The position numbers and the translations under genes were made by a program. 64,000 bases of DNA from Blastopirellula marina DSM 3645 (lineage in GTDB: Bacteria > Planctomycetota > Planctomycetia > Pirellulales > Pirellulaceae), in contig NZ_CH672376.1 in assembly GCF_000153105.1 (NCBI RefSeq), positions 3,604,148 to 3,668,147 of the forward strand. Direction: 5' to 3'. Positions within the stretch are counted from its first letter, which is position 1. Each line of letters opens with the position of its first letter. The notes below the pieces were generated by a model, which made no database searches, was not told the DNA's origin, and worked only from the letters and a program-made list of their open reading frames with translations. Below, piece after piece: positions 32,081 through 64,000 of the stretch.

Positions 32081-32176
32081 AGCGGAGGATCCAAATTGTA
32101 GCTTGGTCCGGGATTGGTAAACGTGAAAGTCACCTCGCCCTCTTCCGGCTGCAGGATGGTTTCTGTCGGCCGCATC
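32081..32176 (-). pseudogene. remnant of a cassette junction (MRPTE linker)
   Basis: About 95 bases are nearly identical to 43430-43525 in the LHH cassette. Read on the minus strand they give MRPTETILQPEEGEVTF and then NPGP...NLDPPL, after which the similarity stops. It is the start of a further cassette whose toxin part has been lost, directly downstream of the small gene at 32202-32516. Confidence 0.75.
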
Positions 32177-32201
32177 AACAGAGAAGGAGTTTCCACGAAA
32201 T

Positions 32202-32516
32202 CTATCCAAATGAGATTTCGTACTCATCGAGGTCGGTTGAATCAAGAGTCGTTTGAATCAGTTCAATAGCTTCAAGCAGCATTTGAACGTACGGGGTCTC
32301 ATTTTGGGAAATCGCCCACATTTTGAGTGTTTCCACTTCCGAAAGGAATTGCGTCTTGAATTCCAAAGCTATTTCCAGTGCGGGGAGCGCTGCAAGCATC
32401 GGAAGATTTAGTTTGGAAATCGCTGGCCGCCATAATTTTTGGTATTGTTCCGCCGAGCATATCGGAATGAACTCTGATTCGTCAGTAGCACGATTAGTTT
32501 TGCAAATGTCGATCAT
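32202..32516 (-). CDS. small acidic protein, putative immunity protein
   Basis: 104 residues, acidic and helical (MLLEAIELIQTTLDSTDLDE near the C-terminus). No family recognised. Its ATG lies three bases after the stop codon of a truncated toxin-like frame (32520-32715), the same tight spacing as the other toxin-immunity pairs in this locus, and it is followed by another cassette junction remnant. That position is the only reason to propose an immunity role. The low GC content compared with the housekeeping genes is shared with the other immunity-like genes. Confidence 0.55.
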   Translation of the reverse strand: MIDICKTNRATDESEFIPICSAEQYQKLWRPAISKLNLPMLAALPALEIALEFKTQFLSEVETLKMWAISQNETPYVQMLLEAIELIQTTLDSTDLDEYEISFG

Positions 32517-32519
32517 TTT

Positions 32520-32715
32520 TTACTTTCCAAAATCTACGGTGAACTCCCAGCCAGGAAATTGCTTTCGCAGTTCATTGACTTGGTAGAGTACATGTCGAAT
32601 TAGGATGGGATCATCTCCTTCAATCCTTAGTTCAAATTTTTGCACTTTTACAGTCCCAGGAATTGGTCTTCCGAAATAGCGTGAGCCTCCGTCAAGATGC
32701 TTGGGTATCTCACAT
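32520..32715 (-). pseudogene. C-terminal fragment of a toxin-like tip, cut off by a transposase gene
   Basis: About 60 residues of protein-like sequence (PKHLDGGSRYFGRPIPGT, LYQVNELRKQFPGWEFTVDF) end at a TAA just before the small gene at 32516. Upstream, the same frame runs into the antisense strand of a transposase gene (32743 onward), so the original 5' part is gone. Family unknown. The position before a putative immunity gene suggests the last part of a cassette toxin. Confidence 0.5.
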
Positions 32716-32742
32716 CCAGGCACTTGAGCAAGGAGGCTCACA

Positions 32743-33362
32743 ATGGAACTTGTACCCGAATTTGCTGCCCTTTTGCAACCCTTTGCCCAAGCGATGACGA
32801 CTCCGACCTTGGAGAGTCTGGCGACGCTGATGGCCGGGTGGGTGCTGGCTAGTGGACGGACTGTTACACGCATGATTCTCGCGGCGGGCGATTCGGCCGA
32901 CAAACATTTTTCGTCCTACCATCGCGTGTTCAGCGCCGCCCGCTGGTCGCTCGACCGCGTCGGTCTGGCGGTGTTCGACTTGATCGAACCGTGGATCGAT
33001 GGCGACGTCCTGTTGGCGTTGGATGACACATTGGCCCGCAAGCGCGGCTTGAAAATCTTCGGCTGCGGCATGCATCATGATCCGCTCATTTCGACGCGCA
33101 GCAAGGCGGTGATGAATTGGGGGCATAGCTGGGTCGTGCTGGGAGTAATCGTCGAGTTGCCCTTTCGTCCGGGACATTATTACTGCCTGCCGATTTTGTT
33201 TCGTTTGTATCTGAACAAGGCGAAGGCCAACCAACATCGCCGCGTTTATCGGACCCGACCAGAACTGGCGGTGCAGATGCTCGACACGCTCTGTTCCCAC
33301 CGGAAAAACAGGCGTTTTCATGCCGTGGCCGACAGCGCCTACGGCGGTCAAAGCGTGCTGAA
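32743..33362 (+). pseudogene. 5' part of a DDE (IS4/IS701-like) transposase, interrupted
   Basis: About 206 residues are intact, from MELVPEFAALLQPFAQAM to DSAYGGQSVLN. The DDE superfamily is suggested by LLALDDTLARKRGLKIFGCG (first Asp) and FHAVADSAYGG (second Asp). The frame is then cut by the IS256-type element at about 33363, and no 3' remainder is seen beyond that element. The gene itself truncates the toxin-like frame at 32520-32715, giving a nested insertion. Confidence 0.75.
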
Positions 33363-33380
33363 TGGTAGTGTCCGTCAAGT

Positions 33381-34750
33381 TGCGCACATTTGATTTTCAG
33401 CCCTGGCTCTGGAAAATTGTTTTTGCCGCGCGCGGCAAGAACAATTTTTCACGCTCCGTGATCTTCCCTCTCCTCCGGTTCGTGCAGGCGGTCCATGTCC
33501 AGGTAACGCCGTGTGCCCCAGTGTGTGCCCGCGATGTGACGCAGCCGGGCGGCGACCAACATCAGGGCGCTTTGGCCGTCGGGGAACGCTCCGACGACTC
33601 GCGTGCGACGGCGGATCTCTTTCATGATTCGCTCCAGCATGTTATTGCTTCGCAGTCTTGTCCAGTGCTCGCGGGGGAAGTTCATGTACGCCAGCGTTTC
33701 CTGGACGCCTGCTCGGAAGCATTTCGCCGCGTTCCCCAGCCGTAGCGAGGCCAGTTTCTCGGCGACTTGTTCCGCTTTTTCAGTCGCTGCAGTTCGGTCT
33801 TCCTGGGCGTGCACCGCCTTCAGCATCGCCGCTACGTCGCGTGACTTGCTGCGCGGCACATCCTTCAACACGTTGCGATAGAAGTGCACGATGCAGCGCT
33901 GCCAAGCCGCCTCGGGAAAAAACTCGCCGAGCGCTTCGACCAGGCCGAGACACTTGTCGCTGGTGATCAGCCGCACGCCTTGCAGGCCACGCTCTTTGAG
34001 ATGGCGTAGGAACGTTCGCCAGCTCTCGCTGTCTTCCTTCGTCCCTTCGGCGACCGACAGAATCTCGCGATGCCCGTCCGATCGCACGCCAACGGCGACG
34101 AGCACCGCGATGTTTTTTACCTCGCCGCCCCAGCTTCGCTTCAGCCAGATGCCGTCGAGCATCACGTACGGATGTTCTCCTTCCAGCGGCCGATTTCGCC
34201 AGACGTCGATTCGCTCGTAGATCTTCTGGTTCAGCTCGCTGACGGTGCTCGAACTGACCCGCGTGCCCCACAACGCCTCGGTGATGTCTTCGACGCGACG
34301 GACCGAGACGCCGGCCAAGTACATCTCGACCAACGCCTCTTCGACGCTCGATTCGCGACGTTTGTAACGTTCGATAATCTGCGTCTCAAGCGGCAAGCTC
34401 CGCAACTGCGGAACCTTCAGCGAGACTTCGCCCGCCTTGGTCTGCAGCTTCCGCGAATACGACCCGGCTCGCGAGTCGACGCGGTCCGGCGAGCGTTCGT
34501 ACCGCTTCGCTTTGCAAATCTGATCCGCTTCGGCGTCGAGCATCTGATTCAACGTCTCCTCGACAGTCGAGCGGACCAGCTCATCAAGATGCCCCCGCAC
34601 CGCTTCGCCGTCAATTTTAATCGCATCCCGGATCTCTTCGCCGGTCCGATCTTCTGGTAAATTCGTCATGGTCAGTCCTTGGTTCTGGTGGTGGTTGATG
34701 TTGCTAATCAAATCCATACCAGAGCCAGGGCTGGCTCTCAAATTTGCGCA
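33381..34750. mobile_element. IS256-family insertion sequence
   Basis: Terminal inverted repeats of about 32 bp, beginning TGCGCA and ending CAGCCCTGGCTCTGG, match at about 27 positions. The outermost bases and target duplication could not be fixed, so the true ends may be a few bases to either side. It carries one complete transposase gene on the minus strand. Confidence 0.8.
33449..34669 (-). CDS. IS256-family (Mutator-like) transposase
   Basis: 406 residues from the ATG at 34669 (MTNLPEDRTGEEIRDAIKID); the frame starts further upstream at 34741, within the terminal repeat. Family signatures: LPLETQIIERYKRRESSVEE, EMYLAGVSVRRVEDI, the first catalytic Asp in YVMLDGIWLK, the second in GVRLITSDKCLGL, the CxxH-type motif around QRCIVHFYRN, and the Glu in RLRSNNMLERIMKEIRRRTR. 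It appears full length and probably active. It has interrupted the DDE transposase fragment at 32743-33362. Confidence 0.95.
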   Translation of the reverse strand: MTNLPEDRTGEEIRDAIKIDGEAVRGHLDELVRSTVEETLNQMLDAEADQICKAKRYERSPDRVDSRAGSYSRKLQTKAGEVSLKVPQLRSLPLETQIIERYKRRESSVEEALVEMYLAGVSVRRVEDITEALWGTRVSSSTVSELNQKIYERIDVWRNRPLEGEHPYVMLDGIWLKRSWGGEVKNIAVLVAVGVRSDGHREILSVAEGTKEDSESWRTFLRHLKERGLQGVRLITSDKCLGLVEALGEFFPEAAWQRCIVHFYRNVLKDVPRSKSRDVAAMLKAVHAQEDRTAATEKAEQVAEKLASLRLGNAAKCFRAGVQETLAYMNFPREHWTRLRSNNMLERIMKEIRRRTRVVGAFPDGQSALMLVAARLRHIAGTHWGTRRYLDMDRLHEPEEREDHGA

Positions 34751-34959: not shown

Positions 34960-35436
34960 CTATTCAAGTACAAGTTTGCAAATGAAGCTGCCAAAGTCAG
35001 GGGCGACTCGAATAAGCGTGGCCGACTTTGCGGCATCCTCATCGCCAAGAGAATCATCCCATCCGACTGAATGGCTTTGAAAGCAAATTGCGCCAAAGCA
35101 ATCAGGACGAAGAGAAATACAAATGAGGTTGCCTGCACCATCATCATTGATGGGAATAACCAATCTTGGAAGCCGCTCGCTAAAGTCGTTCAACGCACCC
35201 GCCAAGTCATCGCCAAAGAACGAGCCGGGGGCAATGCTGCCGTCTTCGGTTAGTATCACAGCATATTCTTCCAAGTCACAAGCTCCGAATTGACGGAGAA
35301 AAGTTCGGTAGTCATCAGGGAAGGCAACCCCAACGCTGTTTTCAAGCCGCTCGAGCTCATCTTCGCTCAATGGTGAAAACTGATCACCTTCCAGAGGCGT
35401 CACGCCCAGTTCTTGAAGCTTGTCAACCCAATTCAT
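34960..35436 (-). CDS. SMI1/KNR4 (SUKH) family immunity protein
   Basis: 158 residues. SUKH features: ELERLENSVGVAFPDDYRTFLRQFGACDLE near the N-terminus in two adjoining motifs, a central beta region, and the late LPRLVIPINDDGAGNLICIS motif. SUKH proteins bind and neutralise nuclease and other toxins of polymorphic systems. It begins 10 bases after the stop codon of a truncated nuclease-like toxin fragment (35447-35673), which is the expected partner. It is one of three SUKH paralogues in this locus, and they are strongly diverged from one another. Confidence 0.85.
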   Translation of the reverse strand: MNWVDKLQELGVTPLEGDQFSPLSEDELERLENSVGVAFPDDYRTFLRQFGACDLEEYAVILTEDGSIAPGSFFGDDLAGALNDFSERLPRLVIPINDDGAGNLICISLRPDCFGAICFQSHSVGWDDSLGDEDAAKSATLIRVAPDFGSFICKLVLE

Positions 35437-35446: not shown

Positions 35447-35673
35447 CTAGTGGGTGATGTCTGTATGTTGTACTTTGTGAACTGCTGTTGGAACGAGTTC
35501 GATCGTGTCACCACCAGCATGATGTGGAGCGAGTCCCTTTCCACCAAATCCGTCATCCGCATTCTTCAACCACCGGCGAGCAGCCGCCTTGGATGGTAAG
35601 TTCTTTCGTCGGGCAATCTCTTCGAAAATCTTTGATATATCAGCATTCGAATCGACCTTTGTGCCGACCAACC
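35447..35673 (-). pseudogene. C-terminal fragment of an HNH/EndoVII-type toxin, truncated at an IS end
   Basis: About 75 residues remain: EEIARRKNLPSKAAARRWL, then LAPHHAGGDTIELVPTAVHK with a final QHTDITH. The His-His pair and later His residues resemble HNH/Endonuclease VII toxin tips. The frame is cut exactly at 35674, the left end of the ISAs1 copy, and no matching 5' part exists beyond that element. The SUKH gene immediately downstream is intact, so immunity has outlived the toxin. Confidence 0.7.
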
Positions 35674-36936
35674 CACGGCGATCGCACCATAAATCACTTC
35701 CCCAGCAGCACTTCCAGCAGGTACTTGTCATTCCTACCCGCCTTTAGTCGCTTGTTCTTCACGCCTACCCTGGCCGTTTTGTTGTTCTTCAGCAGGCTCA
35801 GGCTCGTTCTTCTCAGCAGGCTGAAGTTGATGTCGGCGTGTCCTTTTCTGATTCGACTTTGGTGTTCGCCGAACGTCACGTCGAGTTGCCAGTGCAGACT
35901 ATTTTCAATGCCCCAGTGCCCGCGAACCGCTTCGGCAAAGCGCCGGCCGGTGAGGTATTTGCTCACGATGTAATAGCGAACTTCGCTCGCCTCTTTGCCA
36001 TTTTGCTTGACGAGGTTGATCGTCATGCCGATCGCCTTCAAATTCTTTCACTTGCTCGCGTACGGAAAATCATCCGCGTCGATCGGGCAGAGATAGTAGT
36101 AACGCGATTCCTCACGGCCATGTCCTTTCTCGTGCGTCTCGTGTCGATGAACTTTCCTTTTCGTGAAGTCGATTTCCATCGCATTGGCGAAGTAATCGCG
36201 AATCGCTTGATGCAGCAATCGCTGATTTCCCTTGATCGCTAGGCAATAATCGCCGCCGGCGTTGACGATCTTTTCGGCGATCTCCTTTTGGCAACCCATC
36301 GCGTCGATTGTCACCAAACAGCCGGAAACCTCGATGATGTCGAGCAATTGCGGAATCGCGGTGATCTTGTTGCTCTTCGCGTCGGTCGCGACCTGACCGA
36401 GGCTCACATGATTGACGGTCGCCCACGCACTGACCATATGAATAGCGGCCTTACTGCTGGCTGCGTCGAAGCTGCGCCGCAGCGTCTTGCCGTCGATCGC
36501 GATGACCTGACCGTCGGTCACTTCGTGCAGCGCCGTGATCCAACTCAGCAAGCACTTCTCGAATTCGGCCGGCTTCAGCGCACCGAGAATCGCATTGAAA
36601 CGATCATGCGAAGGAACGCCAGAGCTCATGTCGAGAAACTGCGCGAGCCACTCCTTCTTGTCCTCCGCCCAATCGGCGATCGCCACGAAATCGTCCGCTC
36701 CGCCCAGCACCGCACACAGCGACATTGTCACGACGTTGACCAGCGGATAAGTCACCTTCCGCGTCCGGGGATCGGTCAGGTTCGAAAAGTGCTGTTGAAT
36801 CGAAGCGGCCGAAGAAGACGACATGCCGGAACCCTCCCTGCAAAGCGAACGCCCGGCCGCGAAACGAACATCGCAAAATCGCCAAGACGCACTTGCCGGA
36901 TTATCGCAGGTTGCCCATCATGGCGCAATCGCCGTG
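35674..36936. mobile_element. ISAs1-family element, second copy, inactive
   Basis: 1,263 bp, exactly the length of the copy at 26203-27465 and similar throughout, with the same terminal repeats (CACGGCGATCGCACCAT at left). The 10-mers flanking it do not match, so there is no target duplication; one side has probably been rearranged or deleted since insertion. Confidence 0.88.
35694..36824 (-). pseudogene. ISAs1 transposase with premature stop
   Basis: Aligned with the intact copy (26223-27353), the codon for Trp in YASRWTKLKAIG is TGA here (36048-36050; the local sequence reads YASK then stop). The two segments on each side are in the same frame and the local length is unchanged, so this is a nonsense substitution with several neighbouring changes. 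The rest of the 376-residue frame is well preserved, including IDGKTLRRSFD and LVTIDAMGCQKEIA. Confidence 0.9.
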
Positions 36937-37053
36937 TGACGTCTGGCTCATCTGGGTTCCTATTCGTCATAGGCACCACCTCACACCTTATCTTCGAGGT
37001 GTGGGTATGCATTAAAAAACGTCTTCCTGTAGTTCATCGATAAAACGCTGAGA

Positions 37054-37074
37054 AGGCGTGAAGTATTCACGCCT
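37054..37074 (-). terminator. short hairpin across the stop codon of the SUKH gene
   Basis: A perfect 9-bp stem (AGGCGTGAA with TTCACGCCT) and 3-base loop overlaps the stop codon of the gene at 37067-37507. The T-rich stretch after it is weak (CGTTTTATC), so terminator function is only possible. Confidence 0.4.
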
Positions 37075-37507
37075 CAACTTTGAGGCATTGCGTGCGAATG
37101 TAGTCTTCAAATCCAGAAGCCAATTCAGTCACGCCGCCAAAGTCATGATCGAAAATCCAGACCTTACCATTCACATCCATGCCGATTGGGTTACCTGAAT
37201 GGTCTTCCGAAAAAATAACCCAATCGGAAACACCATCGGTTACCGACTGCCGAACCTCATTTGTTACGTCAATGACTGACCAACGATCATCTTCCATGAC
37301 ATCCGATCCCCGAAGCCCAAAAACCGGATATGGTCCGACCATTGCTCCACCGTAACGCAAAAGGAACTGTCGGTAATCTTCGGAAAATGGGATGCAGACT
37401 TGCTGTGAAGCTGAATCTACTTCATCGCTTGTCGGAACTTCGTCGGCACGCATCACTGGTGATTCAGCGAACATATTGTCAAGTCGTTCAATCGTGTCTG
37501 GTGTCAT
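37067..37507 (-). CDS. SMI1/KNR4 (SUKH) family immunity protein
   Basis: 146 residues. The SUKH pattern is visible: DEVDSASQQVCIPFSEDYRQ then FLLRYGGAMVGPYPVFGL, and DWVIFSEDHSGNPIGMDVNG with a final GGVTELASGFEDYI. It is the predicted antitoxin for the LHH nuclease tip encoded just before it; its ATG overlaps that gene's stop codon (ATGA), so translation is coupled. GC content is lower than in the operons to the left. Confidence 0.88.
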   Translation of the reverse strand: MTPDTIERLDNMFAESPVMRADEVPTSDEVDSASQQVCIPFSEDYRQFLLRYGGAMVGPYPVFGLRGSDVMEDDRWSVIDVTNEVRQSVTDGVSDWVIFSEDHSGNPIGMDVNGKVWIFDHDFGGVTELASGFEDYIRTQCLKVEA

Positions 37508-37992
37508 GGTGTAATTCTCCTAGCAGCCAATTCTTCCAAGGCTCTTGCTTTCCAGTAGCTTTCTCTCCACGCATTGAAGGCTGCTCGCTGTTCAGCAGTA
37601 AGCCCTGCCCCCGGGGCATTGCCAAGGGGATGTTGAATTCGGTTCCCAATGTTGTGGCGGAAACCGGGCATTTCGACAATCGGCCCAACCGGGTCCTGGT
37701 CCAGATGGTGAAGAATCAGTTTCTTACCGTTGATGTCTTTCGGTGCGAAGCCGTTTTTCGTCATCGCTCGAAGCGTGCTGTATTCGACATGCGACAAGCT
37801 CCGAACAGCCCGGACTTCTATTCCCTCAAAAACCAAGCGACTTGGGTTCGAGCCACGAACGATGCCACTTGCTGGGGCATTCTTAACCGCCGCAACCGCC
37901 TTCTTATACGCCTCGCTTGACGCTTCGGCAATGTCGTTAATATTACCAAATCCATTGGCGCTGACCACGACTACCTTTTGCGACTTGGCCAA
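37504..37992 (-). CDS. LHH-type HNH/EndoVII nuclease tip of orphan cassette (3' part, separated by a frameshift)
   Basis: 162 residues. The first ~40 (VVVVSANGFGNINDIAEASS) are nearly the same as the end of the pretoxin region of the giant protein; the rest is unique. The tip reads DINGKKLILHHLDQDPVGPI then VEMPGFRHNIGNRIQHPLGN, the Leu-His-His and downstream His pattern of the LHH group of HNH/Endonuclease VII toxins, predicted DNases or RNases. A one-base deletion near 38073-38080 separates it from the upstream frame (37971-39359). The SUKH immunity gene overlaps its stop codon. As it stands the toxin could only be made by internal start (GTG/ATG near 37992) or frameshifting. Confidence 0.8.
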   Translation of the reverse strand: MAKSQKVVVVSANGFGNINDIAEASSEAYKKAVAAVKNAPASGIVRGSNPSRLVFEGIEVRAVRSLSHVEYSTLRAMTKNGFAPKDINGKKLILHHLDQDPVGPIVEMPGFRHNIGNRIQHPLGNAPGAGLTAEQRAAFNAWRESYWKARALEELAARRITP

Positions 37993-39222
37993 GATTCTGT
38001 CCAGCTCTGTGACATACGTCTTCGCAAATATTTTTGCTTCCTCGACTGTGTCAGCTGTCCATATCCGAACGGTCTGGCGCCCGCCTGGAAGTTATTTAAT
38101 CTGCTTGCTTTTAACCAGTCGGCCGTGGGTAAATCGGCATAACGGACGCCTGAGGTCTTGCCGAGATCGAGTTTTGCGCCAAACAGATGCAGAAGGCCGA
38201 TGCCGATGTTGGAGCCCGACTCTAGATCGACCCCTTCATTCTGGATCGCCTGCATGATGCCCTTGTAAGTGAAGTACGATCCGGTCGCAATGTTGATCGT
38301 GGCGCCGGTACGATACATTATCACGGCGGCCTTGGTGCCTTGGATCTCGGCGGAGCCAGCCCCTAGAGTTACAATCGTCGCTACGTCGCCAGCGGCGGAA
38401 ATGAACGCTTCCTCTTTATTTCCGTCGCCGAACTCTAAGAATGTGTTTGCGAACAGTGGAAATGCCTGGTAAGCGGCTACTGCGGCGTATCTGCGATTGA
38501 TTTGGCCTTGAGAGTCTTCAATGCTTTGATAGGTACTCAGATTGTGGTTTACGGATTCTTGCTTTAGATGAGCTTTCAGTAGCTCGTCAATCGCCAGAGC
38601 GCCGCCACCCTGAGCTGGGCTTGTCGTCCATTTTACGACACGGTAGTGCTCTGGAATCGTTCGCACTGCTTTCGGCAAATGCTGACCAGGCTTCCACGGG
38701 ACGCCATTCGTATGTCCGGTGACTGTGGGCACCCGCTCCAAAATGATTTGGTGAAGCGTTCCGCCTGATACGTCCGCAAGATAGATAAGGTCATTCCCTA
38801 ACGAAGGTAGGGTTGCCCGCTTGGCGTATCCATGGGCGAGAAGATCATTCACTCTCGAAGGCAGCAGATAATTCGGGTTATACGAAAGCGATACGCCGAT
38901 TCCATTAACCGAATTTTGGCCTGTGGGCGCCGCCAATACAGGTGCAACTTCAACAGATTCGTCGTTCAGCCCGATCTCCGTCGGCCGCATCAAATTCTCT
39001 GGAATCCTGACCGGCAGATTGGCGTAGTCGCTTTCAACTTCGCTTGCTTCGGCATTCCCGGCATTGGTAATCGGCGCCAAATCCGCGTTCACTTCGCGAA
39101 CCGCCGCTTCTTTCGTAACACGATCGGCCGTAACCTCCTTCTCCGTCACCGCCTTGCCAACATCCGCTTGCACCTCTCCAACAATCCGATCACGATCGGC
39201 CTGGGTGGTTGCAACATCACTC
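37880..39222 (-). repeat. 1.35-kb near-identical copy of the giant gene's junction and pretoxin region
   Basis: Matches 45728-47075 with few differences by eye. The similarity covers the constant segment, the PENLMRPTE junction and the pretoxin domain and stops where the two toxin tips diverge (after AAVKNAP). Same orientation, about 7.9 kb apart, so homologous recombination between them could exchange the tip. Confidence 0.88.
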
Positions 39223-57200: not shown

Positions 57201-60200
57201 TGACCAGAAAAGTGTCGCTTACTTGTACGCCATCCAGATCCGTTGCTATGACCGTAATCTCGGACTGTCCGATTTCGCCCGGCGCCAGGGTTAACGTTAG
57301 CACTCCATCTATTTCATTCGTTGCAAGCAGTGCGGAGTTAGAGTTTGATAGGGTAAAAGTCAAGTTGCTGGACGACGAAATATAGTTTGCAAGCTCGATC
57401 GTTACTGGAGAATCGTTGACGGAGAGGAATTGATCAGAAATCCGAGTCTGCAATTGCGTTGCGGCTTCGGCAGGGGGATCATCGCTCTTGATTTCACCAC
57501 TCGCCTCAGGCGTTGCGATCGACGCGCCGACTGCATTCGTCAGCGTCAGCTGAAACAATTCCGGCGATTCGTAAATCTCGTCGTTGAGAATCGAAACGAC
57601 GATGTTTCGCTTAGAAACGCCTGGCGCAAAAGTCAGCGTTCCTGACGTGGCCGTATAGTCGAGACCCGCCAGGGCGGTACCATCCACCGTCGCGAAGTTG
57701 ACCGTCACCGTTTCGTCGGTGGTTGGACTCAACGTCACGGTGAAAGTCGCCGTCCCTGCAATTTCATCTACAGAAACGTTACTGACGCTTAGGGCGGGTC
57801 CGCTCTCGAAGACCTGTATCGTGTAGGCGCCCAACGCTGAGCTTTCCGCACTAAACGATCCGAATCCTCCCACTTCAGGGTCAAAGTTCTGGTTATGCGT
57901 CGACGAGACGGCGATATAATACGTACCTGTTGTGGAGGGAGCAAAGGTCACACGACTATCGCGATATGCGTACTTTACATAGTCATTGGCCGAATAGCCC
58001 TCGTCATTCGACCTCAGCGGATTTCCGGAAGCGTCGAATATCTGTACGAAACTGTCGAGAGCGGAGTCGGACGCCCCGGTCTGATCGTTGTAGTACGCGT
58101 CGATGTCGACTGTGATCGTTTGACCCGAAATCAGTTGGATGGCGTAGAAGTCAACATCCGCCGAATTGTAGGATCCGTCCCCAATCGTCGCAGAAATTTC
58201 GGTGACTCCATTCGCGGTCAGTTCAATGAATTGAGCGGACGAGAGTTGATCTGCCGCCAGATCAGAAGGAGGCAATTCGACTTCAATGCTCACGATCTCC
58301 GTCGTTGTCGTGACCTGGTCCGTGACCTGCAGCGTGAAGTAAAAGGTCCCCCAGAAATCGAGATCTCCGATAAACTCGAACGCGCCGGTTTCGTCGATCG
58401 TGATGACGCCGCCCTCCTCGAATGAGGCGAGGCTATAGATTAAGTTGTCGGCATCCGCGTCGATCGCCGAAAACTCGCCAGTCAGCAACTCTCCATGAAC
58501 CACGCTGAGCGGCTCCGGCGTCGTGATGACGGGATCGTTGTTGGTCACCGCGATCGTAACAATCCCTTGCGTTTCGAAGTCATCGTCCGCTACCGAAAAT
58601 GTAAACTCATCACCGCCGATATAACCTTTGTTAGGCGTGTAAATAAAGCTTCCGTTTTCTTCGATGACAACCGATCCATGCAAGGCCTGGACTGCGCGAC
58701 TGTATCTCAACGTGTCGCCGTTGACATCCGTAGCGAATAGGTCGCCGCTGAGCGACGTGTCATGTACAACCGTTACTGTCGCGCCACTAGCTACCGGTGC
58801 AATAGGCGTATCCAAAACATGAATGGTCACCGTCGCCGTATTTCCCTGCGACGGGTCAGTGTTGATTTCGTAGGTGAAACTATCGACGCCGGCGAAGCCA
58901 GGCGTCGGCGTATATTCGAAAGAGCCGTCCGCATGGAAGAAAAGCTGGCCATGCTGCACATCCGCGAGCAGTGTCGGCGTAACCGCACCATTATCGAAGT
59001 CGTTTTGTAACACGCCTGTCGTATCGTCCACGATGAGTTCACCGTAGTGGGGGACGAAGTAGGCATCGTCGGCGGCGGCCCAAGCGACGGACACCGGCGT
59101 TTCACCTGTCCATTGATAGGCAAAATCATGTTGTCCCATGAGGATGTTCGTCGGCCCCGAAAGTGAGATCTCAACTTGCGACTGAAGAGCGGTCGTATAT
59201 TCGTGCTCGCCGACGATCCGGAACTGATTGGTTTCGCCGATTACATAGCTGCCAAGCGGCTCAAGCGTCGCGGCAGACTCCGTTCCGTCTCCCCAGTTTA
59301 TGGTGGCGGTGAAATTATCGACATGGACCGCATCATCGATCGTAAGGACGTCGAGCCGAAGTGCGTACTGTTGCGGCGTGTGACGGATACGCACTAGACC
59401 ATCCGACGACGTGAAGTACTCTCCGTCTTCGGTCAAATACAAATCACCTGTCTCGCCCCATCCGGGAATCGTCCCAGAAATCGAATCGAAGTTCGTGATG
59501 ATTCCGTATTCGAAAGTGTTTCCCCAAACTCTGGCAAGCCGGCCTCCGTCTGCCGATTCGTAGACATCGGTATGTTGGGTCAGCGAGCTGTCTTCATAAG
59601 TGTCGGATGAAATCTTCGTATAGGTCGACGCTTGATTCCAGCCCCACACGGCGACGTAATTAATCGTACCGAAATCTATGAGTCCGGTGGGCTCGCCTAC
59701 GGTTTCTGTAAGCGGCGACGAATTCCAGACGATTCCACTTCCAACTGCGTCAACGGTAGCGGCGCCTTGTTTGACAATTCTTACGGTCGTGGCGAATTGG
59801 CCGTTGTACGGATAAGTGTGGCTTGCCGTTACATGAAATTGCCCCTCTTCATCGGCCACGACGACGCCGACAGCAGTGGTGCCGTCGCCCCACTGAATTG
59901 TTGCGGAATATTGCGACACGTCTGACGGATCGGCATCCGTGAATGTCGCTACGGTCCCAGAAAAGTACTGATCGCGGACGGTCTCAAATACGGCGCCGAC
60001 GGCGGAGAGCGTTTGGACCACGACAGCAACTGGCAATTCACCGGACCACGATTCTCCGACAAAGTACTCTCCCACAGAGAGATACGCAGGGCCCGTTACT
60101 GTAACGATCGTGTCGTATTCGCCCAGCAACGCGTAGGTATGGTCACCCAAGATGCGGAATTCATTTTGACCATTGACTTGATAGTCTCCGATGGCCTCTA

Positions 60201-63200
60201 ACTGTGCGACGCTTTGCGTGCCGTCGCCCCAGTCAACGATGGCGGAATAGTCGTCCAACGTGATAGCGTCCGACTGCATAACGACTTCGATATTCCCATA
60301 GTCATTAAATCGAGCCTTTGATTTCCCATCACTGCTGATCCAATAGTTTCCTTGCACTGTGGTTGCATGATAGAGCGTAAACTCAACTGAACCAGACAGA
60401 GTTAGATAGGATTGCGAGCCGTTCAGTGCTGTGGCGTAGACAATCGTTCGGCCATCGGGCGCTTGATAGGTCTCGGAATGATAGTTTTCGTCGACGTATC
60501 CTTCGACATAGGAAAACTCCGTACTTCGATCAAATCCCCATGTCGCCTCGTAAGCGATCGTCCCCAAGTCTGTGACGCCCAGCGAGACTTCTTCCGTTGC
60601 GACTAGTGGAGCAACCATGCGGACAATACTCGTTGCTGCAGCATCGACGGTCGCGGCGTTGAGTTTGACAATCCGAATATCGATAGCGAATTGGCCGTTG
60701 TATTCGTAGGCGTGCTTGCCGGTGACATGGAAATTTCCGGCGCCATCCGATATCACCTTGCCGAGACTGCTGGATCCATCTCCCCATTGGATGGTTGCGA
60801 AATAGGCCCATTGCGTTGTGGGCTCTGTGTCGGTAAAAGTTGCGACTGTGTCGTCGAATTCATTGCCAAATTCAACCAAAAACGGCGTGCCTGCAGCGGT
60901 GAGAGTTTGAGGAACGATCGTGATTGGCATCTGACCATTCCACTCCTCTCCGAAGCTTTGGCCGCCGACAATCAGGTCTGAGGGCCCCGTGACAGTGATA
61001 TTCACCATTGCGTCGCCAGTCACTTCGTAGGTGTGATCGCTGACTACGCGAAACCAATTTGTTCCCCCCGGAACAAATTGGTCAAAAGGCTCTAGTACGC
61101 CTTCGCTCTGAGTTCCGTCTCCCCAGTCGATTACCGCTAGATAGTCATCGACGGAAATGGCGTCCAGGGCTGAAATCACGTCGATACCTTCCCCCCAGTT
61201 GCGCACTCGAACAGTTCCTTGGGAATTGGTGTAGTACTCCTCATGCGTGATGGGATCAAACGACAAAGAGAGTATATCTTCCCCATATTCGATTTCGCCG
61301 AAATCGCCGCCTCGAAGCGCCATTTGCGCATAGTTTTGGCCGCTGTTGTAAACGATCGTCATTTCGCCGTTAGAGTAAGTAATCTGAGTTCCGGTTTCAT
61401 CCCAGTACGATTCAGTAATTGGCAAGTGCGTACCCATATCCCATGTCCAGTCGGCGGCGAATGCAAGTGAGGCCAATACCGTTTCGCCCAAATGCACGTC
61501 TGGAGTCGCGATCATTGGCTCCGCACTCCAAACGGTAGTGTTCAATTCGGCGTCGATCATCGCGGCATTTTGCTTAGCGATACGAACGCTTCCTTCGAAC
61601 GCGCCGTTGTATGAATAGGTATGGCTGCCGGTTACCTGATACTGGCCATTTCCGTCGGCAATGATGCTGCCATTGCTACTAGTGCCGTCGCCCCATTGAA
61701 TTTTCGCCGAGTATTGCGAAGAAGTGGAGGGTTCGCTGTCGAAGAACGTCACAAGCGTACCGCTAAAGTTCTTGGCGACAACCGGCTCGAACGAGATCCC
61801 CTCCGCCGCAAGCGTCTGCACAACTACTACGACAGGGGCTTGTCCAGACCACTGCTGCCCAAAACTATGACCTCCTTCGACAAGATCGGTGGCGGCGGTG
61901 ATTGAAATCTGAATCTGCGCGGTGGTCGTCGTCGCATAGATGTGTTGACCCAAGACGCGTAACTGGTTTTCTTGGCCCGGTTGAAATACTCCGACATTCT
62001 CGAGCGTTGCGGCGCTTTGCGTTCCGTCTCCCCAATCGATCACGGCCGTGAAGTCATCAGGTGACAACGCGTCATCCGGCGTCAGCACCTGGACCGCCGA
62101 CGACTGGACGCGTGCACGGAAACCGCCGTCGTAACTCTCGAAGATTCCGTCGTAGTTGTCGTCGAAAAGCAAGACTTCTGGCTTGTCGGTAGGACGCAGT
62201 CGTGCTCTGGATTCGTAGCTGTTGAAGTAGAAAGCAATTTCGCTCCCGTCCGGAAGCGTGTAGGTTGAATCGTAATTGGGATTCCCAGCTTCATAGGTGG
62301 TGGAAGCCAAGTCGTATTGCTGCGAACGATCCCAGTCCCATTCGGCTAGATACGTCAGCTTCGCAAATTCGGTATCGTCGGTCACGACGTTTTCTGTTGC
62401 GATCAGCCCTGGTATGCTCCAGACGGAGATATCCGCTGCGACATCAATCGTGGCTGATTCATGCTTGACAATTCTGACGCTGGGCGCGAACTGGCCGGTG
62501 TATTGATAGCGATGGCTTCCATTGACATGAAAGAGGTCGTTCCCTTGCGATGCGATGGAGCCCGACTCAATCGTTCCGTCGCCCCAATCAATCGTGGCTG
62601 AATACTCCGCAACTTCTGCGGGGTCGATATCGGTAAATGTCGCGATGGTCGTACTTAAATAGTCGCCGCGAACCGTATCCAACAACGCGCCGCTGGCGGT
62701 TAGCGTCTGCTCTACGATCGTAACGGAACGGTTTGCGGTCCAGGTATCGGCGGAACTCTGCCCCTCGACGACAATTCCATCGGGGCCAGTAACGGTAACC
62801 GTGATGTCGGTGACGCCGTCCGTTGAATAGAGATGATCTCCGATCACGCGAAATTGATTTTGGCCGCCGACTTGGTAGGTTCCGATTTCTTCGAGGGTTC
62901 CTTCGCTTTGGACGCCGTCTCCCCAATCGATCACGGCCGTGTAATCTTCGGTCGCAATAACGTCTTGGATCGTCACGACGTCAATTGAATCGATCAAATA
63001 GCGAACTCGCACCGTCCCTTCTTGGTTGGTGAAATACGCCTCACTTGTAGCCGAGTCATAATGGTAGTGCAGCACGTTGTCCCAGCCGGCGGCGCCCCAA
63101 TCATCAGCAGAGAGCGTCATTTGCACGTAGCCGTAGCCATCCTGATATTCGATTTGGCGACCATCCAGGGAGTAGGTCGCTTGCAAAACGCCCTCGTACA

Positions 63201-64000
63201 TGCTTGACTCTTCCAAGGGGAGGCTGGTTCCGCGATCCCAGTCCCAGTCCGCCGCATAGGTGATCGTTCCTAAATCAAATGCTCCGGTCGGAACATCCAC
63301 CGTCGCGTAGAATTCCGTTGGCGGAACTTTCGCCAACAATTGCAATTTGTACTGCCCCTGAACTTCGTCGTAGTTCGGCGCCCCATAGCCGCTATTCGCC
63401 GTGTTCGGACTATAGTTGGTGCGGTAGGCGGAACTGATGCCGATGTAGTAGGTTCCGGCTGCTGGAGCAACGAACAGCAGATAGGAATCGGACGTGCCGT
63501 AATAGGGAGACTCTTCGTCGTTCGCGCTGGTTCCGCTGCTGTTCGACGCCAGTTGTGTTCCCGCCGTATTGAAGATTCGCAGATAGCTGTTCAGCGAACT
63601 GAGCTGGGCGCCATCGTCTAGGCGAGTCGCGTCGATGTCAACGTGCAGTTTCTGACCGATCGCCAACTCTACCGCGTAGAAATCGGTATCGTTGTTCCCG
63701 TAAGTTCCATCGCCGATCGCGCCCGACAACTCGGTTTGCACATCCACCGTCAGCTCAACTTCGAGCGTTCGCGAGAGCACGTCTCCCGCCGCGTCGGCGA
63801 TGGTCGCCGTCGCTTCGTCGTCCAGCAAAATCGCTCCCGCCACGTTGGACAACTGCAGCGTAAAGGACTCGGCATCCTCCACAACGCCATCATCGGCGAT
63901 CATCACTGTGACCGTTTGCGTCGCAATGCCTGGGGAGAAGGTGAGCGTGCCGCTGGCAGCTGTGTAATCGGCGCCGGCAGTCGCCGTGCCATCGACGGTC
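45295..64000 (-). CDS. giant multidomain adhesin-like polymorphic toxin (5' end outside the window)
   Basis: At least 6,234 residues; the frame is open at the window edge and enters inside a Calx-beta repeat (TATAGADYTAASGTLTFSPG). In order: PPC-like domain (about 63730-63310); five ~300-residue units with PKD-like WGDG motifs (63300-59100); tandem cadherin-like units (SFEYTPTPGFAGVDSFTYEI); a second PPC and a Calx-beta domain (58250-57480); cadherin-like repeats (57460-55980); nine ~110-residue units with EFDHDGDG-type Ca loops (55900-53100); about 2,000 residues of Ala/Gln/Asp-rich helical stalk (53000-47000); the constant segment and VRIPENLMRPTEIGLND; a pretoxin region; and a tip ending SHHSYSVSLYPQL, then HGGNWWNPTHG, resembling GHH/GH-E-type HNH nucleases. 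Presumed surface-displayed effector. Secretion signal not visible. Confidence 0.85.
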   Translation of the reverse strand, partial: TVDGTATAGADYTAASGTLTFSPGIATQTVTVMIADDGVVEDAESFTLQLSNVAGAILLDDEATATIADAAGDVLSRTLEVELTVDVQTELSGAIGDGTYGNNDTDFYAVELAIGQKLHVDIDATRLDDGAQLSSLNSYLRIFNTAGTQLASNSSGTSANDEESPYYGTSDSYLLFVAPAAGTYYIGISSAYRTNYSPNTANSGYGAPNYDEVQGQYKLQLLAKVPPTEFYATVDVPTGAFDLGTITYAADWDWDRGTSLPLEESSMYEGVLQATYSLDGRQIEYQDGYGYVQMTLSADDWGAAGWDNVLHYHYDSATSEAYFTNQEGTVRVRYLIDSIDVVTIQDVIATEDYTAVIDWGDGVQSEGTLEEIGTYQVGGQNQFRVIGDHLYSTDGVTDITVTVTGPDGIVVEGQSSADTWTANRSVTIVEQTLTASGALLDTVRGDYLSTTIATFTDIDPAEVAEYSATIDWGDGTIESGSIASQGNDLFHVNGSHRYQYTGQFAPSVRIVKHESATIDVAADISVWSIPGLIATENVVTDDTEFAKLTYLAEWDWDRSQQYDLASTTYEAGNPNYDSTYTLPDGSEIAFYFNSYESRARLRPTDKPEVLLFDDNYDGIFESYDGGFRARVQSSAVQVLTPDDALSPDDFTAVIDWGDGTQSAATLENVGVFQPGQENQLRVLGQHIYATTTTAQIQISITAATDLVEGGHSFGQQWSGQAPVVVVVQTLAAEGISFEPVVAKNFSGTLVTFFDSEPSTSSQYSAKIQWGDGTSSNGSIIADGNGQYQVTGSHTYSYNGAFEGSVRIAKQNAAMIDAELNTTVWSAEPMIATPDVHLGETVLASLAFAADWTWDMGTHLPITESYWDETGTQITYSNGEMTIVYNSGQNYAQMALRGGDFGEIEYGEDILSLSFDPITHEEYYTNSQGTVRVRNWGEGIDVISALDAISVDDYLAVIDWGDGTQSEGVLEPFDQFVPGGTNWFRVVSDHTYEVTGDAMVNITVTGPSDLIVGGQSFGEEWNGQMPITIVPQTLTAAGTPFLVEFGNEFDDTVATFTDTEPTTQWAYFATIQWGDGSSSLGKVISDGAGNFHVTGKHAYEYNGQFAIDIRIVKLNAATVDAAATSIVRMVAPLVATEEVSLGVTDLGTIAYEATWGFDRSTEFSYVEGYVDENYHSETYQAPDGRTIVYATALNGSQSYLTLSGSVEFTLYHATTVQGNYWISSDGKSKARFNDYGNIEVVMQSDAITLDDYSAIVDWGDGTQSVAQLEAIGDYQVNGQNEFRILGDHTYALLGEYDTIVTVTGPAYLSVGEYFVGESWSGELPVAVVVQTLSAVGAVFETVRDQYFSGTVATFTDADPSDVSQYSATIQWGDGTTAVGVVVADEEGQFHVTASHTYPYNGQFATTVRIVKQGAATVDAVGSGIVWNSSPLTETVGEPTGLIDFGTINYVAVWGWNQASTYTKISSDTYEDSSLTQHTDVYESADGGRLARVWGNTFEYGIITNFDSISGTIPGWGETGDLYLTEDGEYFTSSDGLVRIRHTPQQYALRLDVLTIDDAVHVDNFTATINWGDGTESAATLEPLGSYVIGETNQFRIVGEHEYTTALQSQVEISLSGPTNILMGQHDFAYQWTGETPVSVAWAAADDAYFVPHYGELIVDDTTGVLQNDFDNGAVTPTLLADVQHGQLFFHADGSFEYTPTPGFAGVDSFTYEINTDPSQGNTATVTIHVLDTPIAPVASGATVTVVHDTSLSGDLFATDVNGDTLRYSRAVQALHGSVVIEENGSFIYTPNKGYIGGDEFTFSVADDDFETQGIVTIAVTNNDPVITTPEPLSVVHGELLTGEFSAIDADADNLIYSLASFEEGGVITIDETGAFEFIGDLDFWGTFYFTLQVTDQVTTTTEIVSIEVELPPSDLAADQLSSAQFIELTANGVTEISATIGDGSYNSADVDFYAIQLISGQTITVDIDAYYNDQTGASDSALDSFVQIFDASGNPLRSNDEGYSANDYVKYAYRDSRVTFAPSTTGTYYIAVSSTHNQNFDPEVGGFGSFSAESSALGAYTIQVFESGPALSVSNVSVDEIAGTATFTVTLSPTTDETVTVNFATVDGTALAGLDYTATSGTLTFAPGVSKRNIVVSILNDEIYESPELFQLTLTNAVGASIATPEASGEIKSDDPPAEAATQLQTRISDQFLSVNDSPVTIELANYISSSSNLTFTLSNSNSALLATNEIDGVLTLTLAPGEIGQSEITVIATDLDGVQVSDTFLVIVEAVNSAPTVITPLGDIHVDEDFGEWTLDLATAFTDSELVDSDDTLLYVLLEHANAIESSVPVTSTYIFDGNLHISAPENSSGTSTITIRAIDSMGEFVDETFTFTINSVNDAPVVIGELGDVSTTINSAATIVDLAGLFADVDVETASDELAFSVTSISAVSLLSADIVGNQLTITPLTDQTGEAIVTIRATDLAGDFVEYELPVKVIYTGQAPIVSAGIADQLVDEDSEDLVIDISTIFADADIALQGDSLSYSVSVDSNDVLSAEIDGTNLVLVFLPDASGSATVTITATDQSGLTGTDEFLMTVSPVNDAPTVTNPLDLSYTGGVSQSVIDLSAIFSDADVSQGTDTLTYQLISESNTMLASADLQNGSLTLNYDPAEIGESEVVIRATDSSGEWIESIITVSISDTVADYHGRIDNVQLADDWGYEFESSTYNAGVTGRILAKLPSGHVEIEFDHDGDGIVDGVKVVESPELFTYDTFYYNPRAIDESLYLFEGDFTLGYRSAEVDESGAVKTYRDWAEFQFSLETLPTGLIAQVSLLEDTNGVGDKKTSNPTLQGSVGADNAGAVIQFDLDDDQQADGQAFADLDGKFLFTPLLTEYGPITISHRVLQWSSNAGAYLTGPWIDFTYELIPETGTRITQFHLASQEASEYDEFYSYGGSTQDPQLVGQLDPDAETLSNVRIEFDHDGDDQYDGFVYTGTEGSFQYSPTGMSPGQVTIRARSVRLDYRTDTEVYGDWTYASFKLEAPELPEVTQLHLANDTGIDPADKITTDGSLIGLVTFTDGLNLDELFVEIDHDGDNVIDGLATVQGDGSFLYESPWLSAGDYNLRARVAVWNDTLFDFASGAWTSLAFTIENSTNTPATVVNMELFNDNGVDKHDGISTDAAISGQIANDGDVAYWTVEFDQNGDGVSDGRVNADASGRFLYVPIGLSLGEHTVKARVREWDYASRQIITGDWSEYTFTVAQPVNEAAEVTQFYLLSDTGASPNDGVTGNPLLGGVVTNAESLDGLIVEFDHNGDGTVDGYSFTDASGEFDYEPVALPYGTHTIAARVREWDYISSTYKLGAWEPLTFTFEEQANVAAEIVSVGLADGAAIVNGATYDPTISGVIRNETTLAGVTIDIDFDEDGIADAITVTDQRGHFNYTVDNPADGEISLKIRTREFDFATGAELIGDWTPIAFSYAQRVNTPVSITSVELVNDTGTAADGVTTDPTIHGVIANDQSLSGVEVQIDTNGDGLFDQTTTTNSSGEFEFKPTGLAAGEHTLSIRVKEYDEHNVAIYSDLSTVTFELETPQVTTAGSISQLKLLYDTGNSNSDGATANSTLSGVLSASLGSGNITIEFDHDGDGVIDGTATGVAGQSFNYLPAGLEEGYHNISARVAGTSDWRSISFISSTNPDSEATQDLLTSQANLGNALGNINTDYQLSIDGSNFQFNTSITSVINQFDSAIATATATFQSTMADARTTLEGIVKQSLLDVNAATSLANANYLTDLGLFSGDKTSFQFDGFELDDAPQSIAYKLASGDDLVTAPQYDAEPNYFRFDIEKDPVYQASKRAAYQVQMQSKRTAVANYKQTVHDLAEAANGEIATILSDLEKEINAAERLRDQKLADAEEILAGRAEGLPSGVSAFDLKAELDRVNQDREELMEGYEPFLAMTNWILSFNYSSLAQSLPLGYEHVVDVIGQEVYDELNEAASFWSGQYSVSSQYMAAHTSAYNTFYQRTLDVQQALENWPGEPGPDAPYEEWDEWYESQTEYYYEQMADAAEAYYKTLAPTEYQISIEALDTMADFNRTMIEKKRSYELKKTSLDQKRADVLSKYAIIEQKYKAQVEHEYLTTMSTALSTAEAAVLQIQKTKYDAATSAAATRDKDLFNADVVAQTSLLTEGTGAVSAYAQADSSQAATLQLDQQNNSQAVSEAILTKQLEVFNAIADDLASAQASAVSQQSQVASQLAAMQAAIRISDSDAWIQANQASLDNELEYRLAENEAYYTSQEAFTDAVYDALIDRVKVWHDGNKQLAKDMRDAVAEWEYPYSRDYYPQYFDDLFPHESSPGRPSSLTGDLNRIKSDTFSGYYNGQNAYADGQINVDKVAAIAQYDLDIAEAKFQWQKTDAQIWTAYEIEILQQDSGYLESATSQQASADQANLDTIRQYEANAAGLNRQLQEEIANQQATYETTDAGLSSQFDLDRAAEHQDKLADFDAAQGNSYSANALADFTSYFSQIVTSAGDLFDSFIDSAAELSNTLTAALAAANEEAAISVSDASAAADKKSITDGAQATQDLLAAQVAYQIAMLQAERDRDIAQFTAERDKRVDDVTANFELQTVYAEGNAKAAASSEEWYHYWYRSSPYYDHFLPEPEQTSYEVDLERRRDNVDAQTEYALAKAQAEVEYVTASENAKTAFAGKYVTAANTLADAIKNSSDRLADADKQTIDKWNADLAKSDTAATKAQTAAYQVYDTSFTATQNTLDTSLSPLENTHRQNVTSNSGILVTSVATDHHTALEAADFGGPLSTLLIGQANSDVASVTASVAQQNGYAAATASSLDAMTNALAPVASAFVTATANAAKAALDAYSSNSADYSNTATRASTTADSAQIKAANAYDAATLKAGVAHFQQQAAAEAAAKIAFVQNDYDWINSVAPKKQAYELALLIPYDYPLDEFEYYDYVHPEVTATLGAYNAALEAANQIRSDANGSAEETQVQALGDAVNAHVTANGVAVLAHATAVGAAYTSFVSNLSAAATKLVGMDNTVESTAQQQTIAAETQQASTQQSITNTFSFALSAAGTAQWTASIPAIQTAAATGATLLHSYYLGKAASDTAAWSSLATVQPGVRADVGLAQAQGKQAYLTANTTETVRNQLEQTNSLIEYQTAQQATTNLLLSSTSTKLDNYYSDLSSNGNTLDITFSAASQKYSLDLTKAQQTLDDQLAVAEAKHGAKLAADYVDYYAKAVAAQVTYQIELNDEDQDVVDGAEAKRDATLLALDLAQIEKTAQADFQYAQDTANHLKTYNAAAIDADYSFTIKIDSAQYAYSQKSAQSEKALNLGLEATNESALAQNNAASNALNARLTTNTATHQANQAAAQQAGVTTIDTLLDNDYTAFLTAQFTGHQTAATNLLTETEDWLLDNIGSNVAYVAIAAVASNTYSSLRESTIFARNLLAASSLKQAEDQIAGSYQSNGSQLADAIAAYQIAEAQALRDHRIAIEQADRRFADNGDTTARNTSLTDANKTLRAARETFTEAYYKAAIGAQGAHQSTVAKSEAQYENNVGQSRAQSTKAIADAQVNYVTTEAAAYRTQQETVAARDKEFAEFGVDNDYDSLVDALAALTAANNDTADPWTTKALAVAAAVQDAATDIAAAIHDYDVSQAAASEANDVANAQADRDRTVGEVQADVGKTVTEKDIVADRVTKEAAIREVNADLAPITNAGNAEASEVESDYANLPVRIPENLMRPTEIGLNDESVEIAPVLAAPTGQNSVNGIGVSLSYNPNYLLPSRVNDLLANGYAKRATLPSVGNDFIYLVDVSGGTLHQIILERVPTVTGHTNGVPWKPGQHLPKAVRTIPEHYRVVKWTTSLAQGGGALAIDELLKAHLSQDSVNHNLSTYQSIEDSQGKINRRYAAVAAYRAFPLFANTFLEFGDGNKEEAFISAAGDVATIVTLGAGSAGVQGTKAAVVMYRTGATINLATGSYFTYKGIMQAIQNEGVDLESGSNIGIGLLHLFGAKLDLGKTSGVRYADLPTADWLKASRLNNFQAGAQTVRIWTANTVEEAKIFAKTYVTELDRILAKSQKGVVVSANGFGNINDIAEASSEAYKKAVAAVKNAPVPFGTPYRQLSRNKYNELLSKVESRTITNDEWRRLQWYERLTDRRQAGIDAFWDRERELLSQGLPGTRNWNDLARKTILAGGQPRGIFSHHSYSVSLYPQLADDPDIITPLTFREHFFKYHGGNWWNPTHGVPLRPDLPDDF
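47000..53000 (-). repeat. Ala/Gln/Asp-rich helical stalk region
   Basis: About 2,000 residues of the giant protein with strong Ala bias and few Gly or Pro, predicted long helices or coiled coil (for example QQNNSQAVSEAILTKQLEVF, EAKHGAKLAADYVDYYAKAV). DNA is GC-rich here, so long spurious frames exist on the opposite strand. Its last ~370 residues are duplicated in the cassette at 42326-44757. Confidence 0.8.
53100..55900 (-). repeat. nine ~110-residue repeats with Ca-binding DxDGDG-like loops
   Basis: Protein-level repeat inside the giant gene, spacing about 320-340 bases. Each unit has a core such as VEIEFDHDGDGIVDG or LIVEFDHNGDGTVDGY, followed by a GxFxYxP strand and an Arg-rich strand (VRAR/KARVREWDY type). 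The Asp pattern resembles dockerin/EF-type loops, so Ca may stiffen this section. Confidence 0.85.
59100..63300 (-). repeat. five ~300-residue PKD-like repeats
   Basis: Protein-level repeat inside the giant gene with a period near 900 bases. Each unit has a W-D-W-D-type start (WDWDRGTSLPLEES, WTWDMGTHLPITES, WGFDRSTEFSYVEG) and two WGDG strands (AVIDWGDGVQSEGTLE and ATIDWGDGTIESGS). The units are clearly diverged at DNA level, so the expansion is old. Confidence 0.85.

Follow-up and report, generated by a model that had tools for sequence, protein, structure and literature searches.

The stretch of DNA that we analyzed (the window: 64,000 nucleotides, C2:3604148-3668147, of the 6.66-Mb genome of Blastopirellula marina DSM 3645) very probably holds a polymorphic toxin locus, in which a downstream reserve of toxin tips could be loaded onto a giant carrier protein. 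This reading is carried by the domains of the locus, a shared junction, end differences between relatives, shuffling of modules and a recombination footprint. An earlier note on the same DNA had proposed a tip-switching system equivalent to CdiA, Rhs and MafB, and at the sequence level this proposal is supported by toxin and SUKH profiles, by related loci and by a pre-toxin (PT1) common to the main gene and its third cassette. Positions are in window numbering, with coordinates above 64000 referring to the adjoining genome, and the parts of the locus lie on the minus strand unless stated otherwise.

A giant carrier gene ends in a predicted nuclease domain

The giant carrier-toxin gene occupies 45295..64000 with its 3' part and runs on to 72612. 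Its open reading frame takes up 45295..63906 within the window, stays open into the adjoining genome and, counted from the first ATG, encodes 9,105 residues (45295-72612). A Pfam scan of the whole frame, cut into five pieces, identified PPC repeats, Calx-beta, Big_9 and cadherin-like domains and a C-terminal Tox-GHH domain. The Ala-rich stalk of about 2,000 residues that had been described earlier is present at 46930..52800 (giant residues ~6600-8560); over residues 6601-8700 alanine makes up 17-23% of six of the seven 300-residue blocks and 12% of the first. Behind the stalk and the pre-toxin, the main tip (45295..45735) is a Tox-GHH domain of the HNH/EndoVII nuclease type (PF15636, residues 9004-9073 of 9,105, E 8e-14, 51.7 bits against a cut-off of 25), so that this multi-domain carrier terminates in a toxin domain. 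With this match above cut-off and the next ATG 10 bp past the stop, the view that the gene ends in a nuclease-like tip followed by a small gene is borne out. The main tip region had no match in viral contigs.

Pfam has models for two-partner-secretion haemagglutinin/FHA-type repeats and for RHS, MafB and LXG/WXG domains. No RHS, filamentous-haemagglutinin, MafB or WXG/LXG match was found in the whole giant frame at E<=0.1, and the claim that the carrier is unrelated to CdiA, Rhs and MafB holds for the families scanned. The N-terminal 2,000 residues, searched with Pfam and NCBIfam, contain PPC, Calx-beta and an FDP_fam (DVUA0089) repeat together with a sub-threshold Planc_extracel motif (PF07595, residues 34-48, 16.9 bits against a cut-off of 25.5, E 0.005), and the first 120 residues contain no 19-residue stretch with a mean hydropathy above 1.6. 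Since there is no hydrophobic stretch above the cut-off and the Planc_extracel match falls below its own, export is unaccounted for, which counts against reading the protein as a weapon.

Five cassettes follow the giant gene

Going 3' on the same strand, the giant gene is followed by cassettes c1, c2, c3, c4 and c5 and then by a 98-bp trace of another cassette. The five tips or tip remnants end at 42326, 39873, 37504, 35447 and 32520, exactly as first reported. The first two are tips in an open frame with a copy of carrier sequence. In c1 the carrier copy (43506..44756) matches 46829-48067 at 92% over 1,251 columns, with 244 bp at its 5' end identical, and leads into pre-toxin PT2 and an LHH nuclease tip (42326..43505; Tox-LHH, PF14411, 84.7 bits, E 5e-24). 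The c2 copy (41261..41645, 385 bp, 92% to 46938-47322) leads into a pre-toxin and tip at 39873..41260. In c3 a copy of the carrier end and PT1 (37874..39225, 95% to 45725-47077 over 1,353 columns) is separated by a broken frame from an LHH nuclease tip (37504..37873; PF14411, 47.1 bits, E 3e-12). The last two cassettes are tip remnants cut by transposases: c4 (35447..35670) is WHH-like below the cut-off (13 against 25.1 bits, E 0.09), and c5 (32520..32700, limits set by eye) has no profile. The carrier copies, of 385-1,353 bp and 92-95% DNA identity, are far beyond chance.

Two of the earlier claims about these cassettes stand in part. Four tips had been assigned copies of the carrier 3' sequence; such copies lie upstream of the tip in c1, c2 and c3 only, whereas c4 has an ISAs1-type element in that place and the copy near c5 (32080..32177, 98 bp, 94% to the c1 junction and PT2 start) is placed downstream of it, as a trace of a further lost cassette. 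Of the toxin profiles suggested for the tips, GHH (main) and LHH (c1 and c3) were found above cut-off, but WHH in c4 only below it, and the c2 and c5 tips had no Pfam match. The G+C content is 43-53% in tips, pre-toxins and small genes versus 56-62% in the measured pieces of carrier.

Transposable elements are interspersed with the cassettes. A one-end remnant of an ISAs1-type element (142 bp, 44757..44898) separates the main immunity-like gene from c1. A full insertion sequence (35674..36937; Pfam DDE_Tnp_1/DDE_Tnp_1_assoc), which we take to belong to the ISAs1 family, occupies the place of the 5' part of c4; the genome has nine full-length copies of this type among 14 matches. Two full copies of a Mutator-family transposase gene flank the giant gene, one at 33449..34741 and the other upstream of it at 76418-77731; counting matches of any length, the genome has 7. 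On the plus strand, a DDE_5 transposase fragment (32743..33393) adjoins the c5 remnant. Judging from their positions, the ISAs1-type elements probably account for the damage to c4 and to one cassette of a second array (own2, below), and the DDE_5 fragment for that to c5. The repeats at 36814-36936 and 44774-44898 were considered as a downstream recombination border and rejected, being insertion-sequence ends. Given the broken frame of c3 and the remnants c4 and c5, the array is partly decaying, which counts against a weapon reserve.

Three further features were seen around the array. Another full ISAs1-type copy at 26203-27466 is 85% identical to the one in c4, and beyond the end of the array a tandem repeat (28984-29368) contains about 4 copies of a ~92-96-bp unit with 91% matches. 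A 171-bp carrier fragment, 95% identical to the main gene, lies close to the second Mutator copy (77817-77987; L022:5965-6135).

Small genes behind the tips

A different small gene had been said to follow each downstream tip within 10 bp, and the distances from tip stop to next start (1, -4, -4, 10 and 3 bp for c1 to c5, and 10 bp for the main tip) are in agreement. The description of these genes as immunity-like holds for three of them, as the genes after c1 (41869..42324; PF14567, 83 bits), c3 (37067..37507) and c4 (34960..35436; PF09346, 69.2 bits) match SUKH/SMI1 in Pfam above cut-off; for those behind the main tip, c2 and c5, position is the only ground for the term. The main small gene (44901..45284, 127 residues) had a sub-threshold match to EspC as its sole Pfam match (14.2 against 23.5 bits, E 0.06) and nothing in NCBIfam or PHROGs. 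The c2 gene (39511..39876) contains several hydrophobic segments and had no match in Pfam or NCBIfam, and the c5 gene (32202..32516) had none in Pfam, NCBIfam or PHROGs.

The c2 tip had no match in Pfam, NCBIfam, PHROGs or PDB sequences. Among 241 genomes of the family, besides its own, only one (G087) gave a match, where 95 residues near the c2 end are 40% identical to a tip (E 7.5e-7). A HINT-like stretch (below cut-off for PT-HINT, 14.9 against 27.7 bits) precedes the G087 tip, and a small hydrophobic gene follows it; this gene has no blastp similarity to the c2 small gene (E 3.3-4.2) and shares only its hydrophobic character. Because the neighbouring genes are hydrophobic, our guess is that the c2 toxin might have a membrane target. 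The G087 locus (L064) has two tips with different ends behind HINT-like stretches within 2 kb, and is perhaps another cassette array.

Junction motif and pre-toxins

The carrier copies meet their variable ends at a junction motif, YANLPVRIPENLMRPTE (46828..46878, giant residues 8579-8595), which is near-identical in c1, c3, own2a and own2c; with the main gene, these share the consensus YANLPV[RKD]IPENL[MR]RPTE. Soon after the motif the main gene, c1, own2a and own2c are unalike, except that c1 and own2c have PT2 in common (53% over 275 alignment columns starting at the motif). Both c2 and the congener G028 depart from the carrier slightly before it. The main gene and c3 share PT1 (45736..46730 in the main gene), with 94.7% protein identity over 356 residues (giant residues 8541-8896) and DNA homology (95%) to residue ~8963; past PT1 the main gene ends in GHH and c3 in LHH. 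This sharing of one pre-toxin by two different nucleases appears to be the best trace of switching at the locus. LHH is joined to PT1 in c3 and to PT2 in c1, and PT2 in turn is joined to LHH in c1 and to an MPTase4-like end (below cut-off) in own2c. These different pairings show two exchangeable joints, one between carrier and pre-toxin and the other between pre-toxin and toxin, and pre-toxin and toxin modules are shuffled separately.

Recombination footprint and selection

The main gene and c1 differ at 90 of 1,239 sites, none of them among the first 244, and 0 of 5,000 permutations produced a run of this length. Plain conservation does not explain the tract, because 14 of the 213 sites compared within it differ between own2a and the main gene. 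The run test was weaker for main-c2, c1-c2 and main-G029a (77, 60 and 56 of 5,000) and not significant for main-c3 (1,619 of 5,000), all counts being uncorrected for the five pairs tried.

Relative to the main gene, dN/dS was 0.22 for c1, 0.24 for c2 and 0.24 for c3, as compared with 0.38 for own2a and 0.15 for G028; for own2c it was 0.41, calculated on the open part. On the c1 branch, when own2a was taken first among the outgroups, 24 changed codons were synonymous and 14 nonsynonymous (P 4e-7); with G029a in that position the counts were 19 and 13 (P 2e-5), and 11 codons were unresolved. The nonsynonymous share of 37-41% is well below the neutral share of 75.7%, a value that ignores transition bias. 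On the own2a branch the counts were 18 synonymous and 35 nonsynonymous (P 0.07), a share of 66% that is not clearly below neutral; purifying selection on the c2 branch depended on the outgroup (P 0.003 or 0.07). The 244-bp tract together with purifying selection on the c1 branch points to a recent exchange or a recent demotion. It would seem that c1 diverged mostly inside a working gene and that own2a has long been silent.

Related loci vary behind the carrier end

The same genome contains a second array, own2 (C2:3282337-3292342), about 360 kb from the window locus. There, own2a has an HNH-like end (14.1 against 21.4 bits) and a SUKH-like gene (20.6 against 25.4 bits), both below cut-off. The own2c carrier copy is interrupted by an ISAs1-type element; this cassette has a Tox-MPTase4-like end (20.9 against 25 bits), carries a stop and adjoins the insertion sequence. 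The array also contains a PT-HINT tip followed by an ankyrin gene.

The stalk end, used as a protein query, matched 6 of 241 genomes of the family, and a stalk-end profile reached 7 of 396 genomes from the order and 5 of 392 from the phylum, each count including the window's own genome. The order and phylum draws overlap, and the comparison covers one genome per species. Alignments of the C-terminal 2,505 residues of the giant with own2, G028, G030, G033 and G056 stop at residues 8540-8637, an internal own2 fragment (residues 8047-8211) being left aside. As had been anticipated, the junction is shared by related genomes, the carrier end being kept and the following sequence changed, and own2 and L055 repeat the layout of the locus.

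Related carriers bear different toxin domains, several of the ends being below cut-off or without a profile. Above cut-off behind a carrier copy are GHH (main), LHH (c1 and c3), PT-HINT (G030, G033 and G037) and Tox-REase-3 with Imm7 (G033). The G056 end resembles Tox-REase-5 below cut-off (23.1 against 25 bits), and the ends of c2, c5, G028, L052, both L055 copies and L061 had no toxin profile match. The gene 3' of the tip encodes Imm7 in G033 and SUFU with Ank domains in G037, and an Ank gene follows own2d. A SUKH match after L061 is below cut-off (16.4 against 27 bits). As with the main gene, c2 and c5, the small gene is assigned by position only in G028, G030, G056 and L051, and no small gene was identified after the own2c and L052 tips; in L052 (Rhodopirellula solitaria) no same-strand frame of at least 80 residues starts within 1.1 kb after the end. 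Different toxin families with immunity-type neighbours, both above cut-off, are found in two genera, the window's own (g1) and g8 (G033 and G037). No two of the compared genomes (one per species) differ solely by a tip taken from the window array; the swap itself is thus not seen, which counts against the reading as a weapon reserve.

Individual relatives differ in how much of the locus they retain. The congener G028 has a carrier of 61% identity, a tip without profile and a 230-residue gene 12 bp on; a protein similar, by eye, to type IV coupling proteins is encoded about 9 kb downstream of its giant gene (L024:9861-11210), a hint of a mobile element. In G033, PT-HINT and Tox-REase-3 with Imm7 lie on a 7-kb contig, so that most of the carrier is outside it. 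PT-HINT tips are also present in G030, G037 and L051, that of G037 being followed by the SUFU/ankyrin gene. In G027, of the same genus, the stalk end is unmatched and the middle region gives a short, weak match (101 residues, 37%). The congener G029 is syntenic at the site of own2 (85-92% DNA identity), with the array absent save ~130 bp of carrier. At another place in G029, the alignment to a carrier remnant likewise ends near residue 8560, with no recognised tip behind; the middle region of the giant has no match in this genome, in which nothing but remnants of the carrier was found. This remnant locus (L025/L026) and own2 (L021) have in common 583 bp of a PT-HINT cassette, at 95% identity and at non-corresponding sites.

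Genome contigs searched with the stalk alignment yielded no relative, and with the middle region of the giant they yielded nine loci, which by title are 7 planctomycete, 1 'bacterium' and 1 proteobacterium (E 2e-4). Among the nine, ends were read in L051, L052 and L055; L050 is the record of G056, the frames of L053, L054, L056 and L057 run beyond the stretch read with their ends outside, and L058 was left out. In L055, a distant planctomycete MAG that was reached by the middle region alone, the main gene is followed by a small gene that overlaps the stop of the main gene and then by an orphan that repeats the L055 stalk end (81% over 625 bp of DNA, 73% over 222 residues of protein) and continues into a different end. 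Neither of the two ends has a Pfam match. L061 (G065) has a doubled stalk piece of ~200 bp at 77%; L060 (G065) was read and left out of the profile tests. On the MAG contig L057 a weak middle-region match (33%, E 1e-13) lies within a long frame whose later part looks RHS-like by eye, and middle domains similar to those of the giant may sit on other carriers.

Discussion

Export, delivery, toxicity, immunity and swapping within a species are the steps that we infer. The giant protein would be a surface-displayed or secreted carrier whose C-terminus, a pre-toxin and a nuclease, would be delivered into neighbouring cells, and the producer would be protected from the toxin by the gene right after the main tip. 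The cassettes further downstream would be former or acquired tips, three of them retaining part of the carrier 3' sequence, and homologous recombination in the shared 0.4-1.35 kb, or at the border of pre-toxin and toxin, could place a spare tip, together with its immunity gene, on the carrier.

The locus appears to work like the tip reserves of CDI, Rhs and MafB, and its carrier fits none of the three. Like CdiA-CT/CdiI loci, as described in passages of PMC3150448, it has a main gene, an immunity gene and downstream orphan toxin/immunity pairs that retain carrier sequence of varying length and are in some cases cut by insertion sequences, and a junction motif that marks the variable end. Unlike CdiA, the giant carrier has no haemagglutinin-type domain in Pfam, and no VENN motif occurs in the giant, in c1 or in the 21 end sequences compared. 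In Salmonella Rhs, an orphan and the main gene have 522 bp in common at 95% and a fusion was inferred after passage (from part of PMC3967940). A stretch fit for recombination is likewise common to cassette and main gene at our locus (95% over 1,353 columns in c3 and 92% over 1,251 in c1), but the giant is without RHS repeats in Pfam and fusion was not observed. MafB/MafI loci similarly keep silent C-terminal cassettes and immunity genes behind a secreted toxin gene (from part of PMC4287609), whereas our carrier of ~9,100 residues has no MafB-type match. The N-terminal LXG/WXG domain of T7SS toxins was not found in the giant (E<=0.1).

With polymorphic toxin systems in general the locus shares a C-terminal toxin, varied toxins, an immunity gene directly downstream and standalone cassettes nearby (c1-c5, own2 and L055). 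In the portion of Zhang et al. 2012 available to us (PMC3482391), SUKH is paired with Tox-LHH, Tox-GHH and Tox-WHH and Imm7 with Tox-REase-3; the same text covers HINT pre-toxins and solo cassettes and lists planctomycetes for LHH and WHH. Planctomycetes are absent from the Tox-REase-3 row as seen there, and most of that text lacks the terms cadherin, Calx-beta, coiled coil, alanine-rich, Rhodopirellula and Blastopirellula. Giant genes are numerous in planctomycete genomes, with 12-14 in three Stieleria strains according to part of PMC7717043, where a table entry gives the Pirellulaceae protein Pla52n_68570 of Stieleria varia (6,872 residues) as 'toxin system' with cadherin-like adhesion. The likeness to our giant lies in this table entry alone, as tip variation, an immunity gene or a cassette array are not given in that part of the article. 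Giant cadherin-like proteins also appear in PMC9387257 and PMC11573180, without a main-plus-cassette layout in the parts available. Among the matches listed, with subscription literature mostly outside, no title concerned a planctomycete giant carrier with exchangeable tips.

Whether the array serves as a reserve has to be judged from the state of its parts. The cassettes might be displaced old tips that are decaying, with the immunity genes as the living function, if any, a history compatible with a weapon but not with a reserve. It would explain the transposase-cut remnants c4 and c5, the broken frame of c3 beside SUKH genes of c3 and c4 that are still open, the nearly neutral evolution of own2a, the stop and adjoining insertion sequence of own2c and the mere fragments in G029. 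We nevertheless find it somewhat doubtful, given that c1 and c2 are open into their tips and that the c1 carrier piece changed while purifying selection acted on it and shares its 244-bp identical tract with the main gene. Another course of events, not exclusive with a loadable reserve and in our judgement slightly less likely than not, is that tips arrive by horizontal transfer with a foreign stretch of carrier and push older tips downstream, swapping back being rare. Carrier pieces that differ by 5-8% from the main gene with dN/dS of about 0.22-0.24, as if diverged in working genes elsewhere, are consistent with such arrivals, as are the low G+C of the tips and the PT-HINT piece shared by G029 and own2; the identical main-c1 tract argues instead for some exchange within the locus.

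It is very improbable that the giant protein is an adhesin, no weapon at all, to which insertion sequences brought a nuclease end and cassettes by chance. The locus is indeed rich in insertion sequences, and the giant proteins of one Stieleria strain are mostly read as adhesins or glycosyl hydrolases (from part of PMC7717043). However, in two genera related carrier ends are joined, with matches above cut-off, to toxins of different families beside immunity-type genes, and the spacing between tip and small gene is tight. The reading that we prefer remains a toxin locus with a reserve of tips. Much more tentatively, it could represent a class of contact weapon that is the planctomycetes' own: a rod of 5,000-9,000 residues built of PPC, Calx-beta and cadherin-like domains, with an Ala-rich stalk, planctomycete-specific export, two exchangeable joints and a tip reloaded from downstream cassettes.

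Such a weapon raises the question of how so large a protein (9,105 residues), with no hydrophobic signal to be seen, exits the planctomycete cell and delivers its end. If the preferred reading is true, some planctomycete giant genes would encode weapons against other bacteria, with spare tips in store and a carrier that belongs to none of the delivery families compared. This would give planctomycete giant proteins a concrete and testable function and open a new source of toxin and immunity families.
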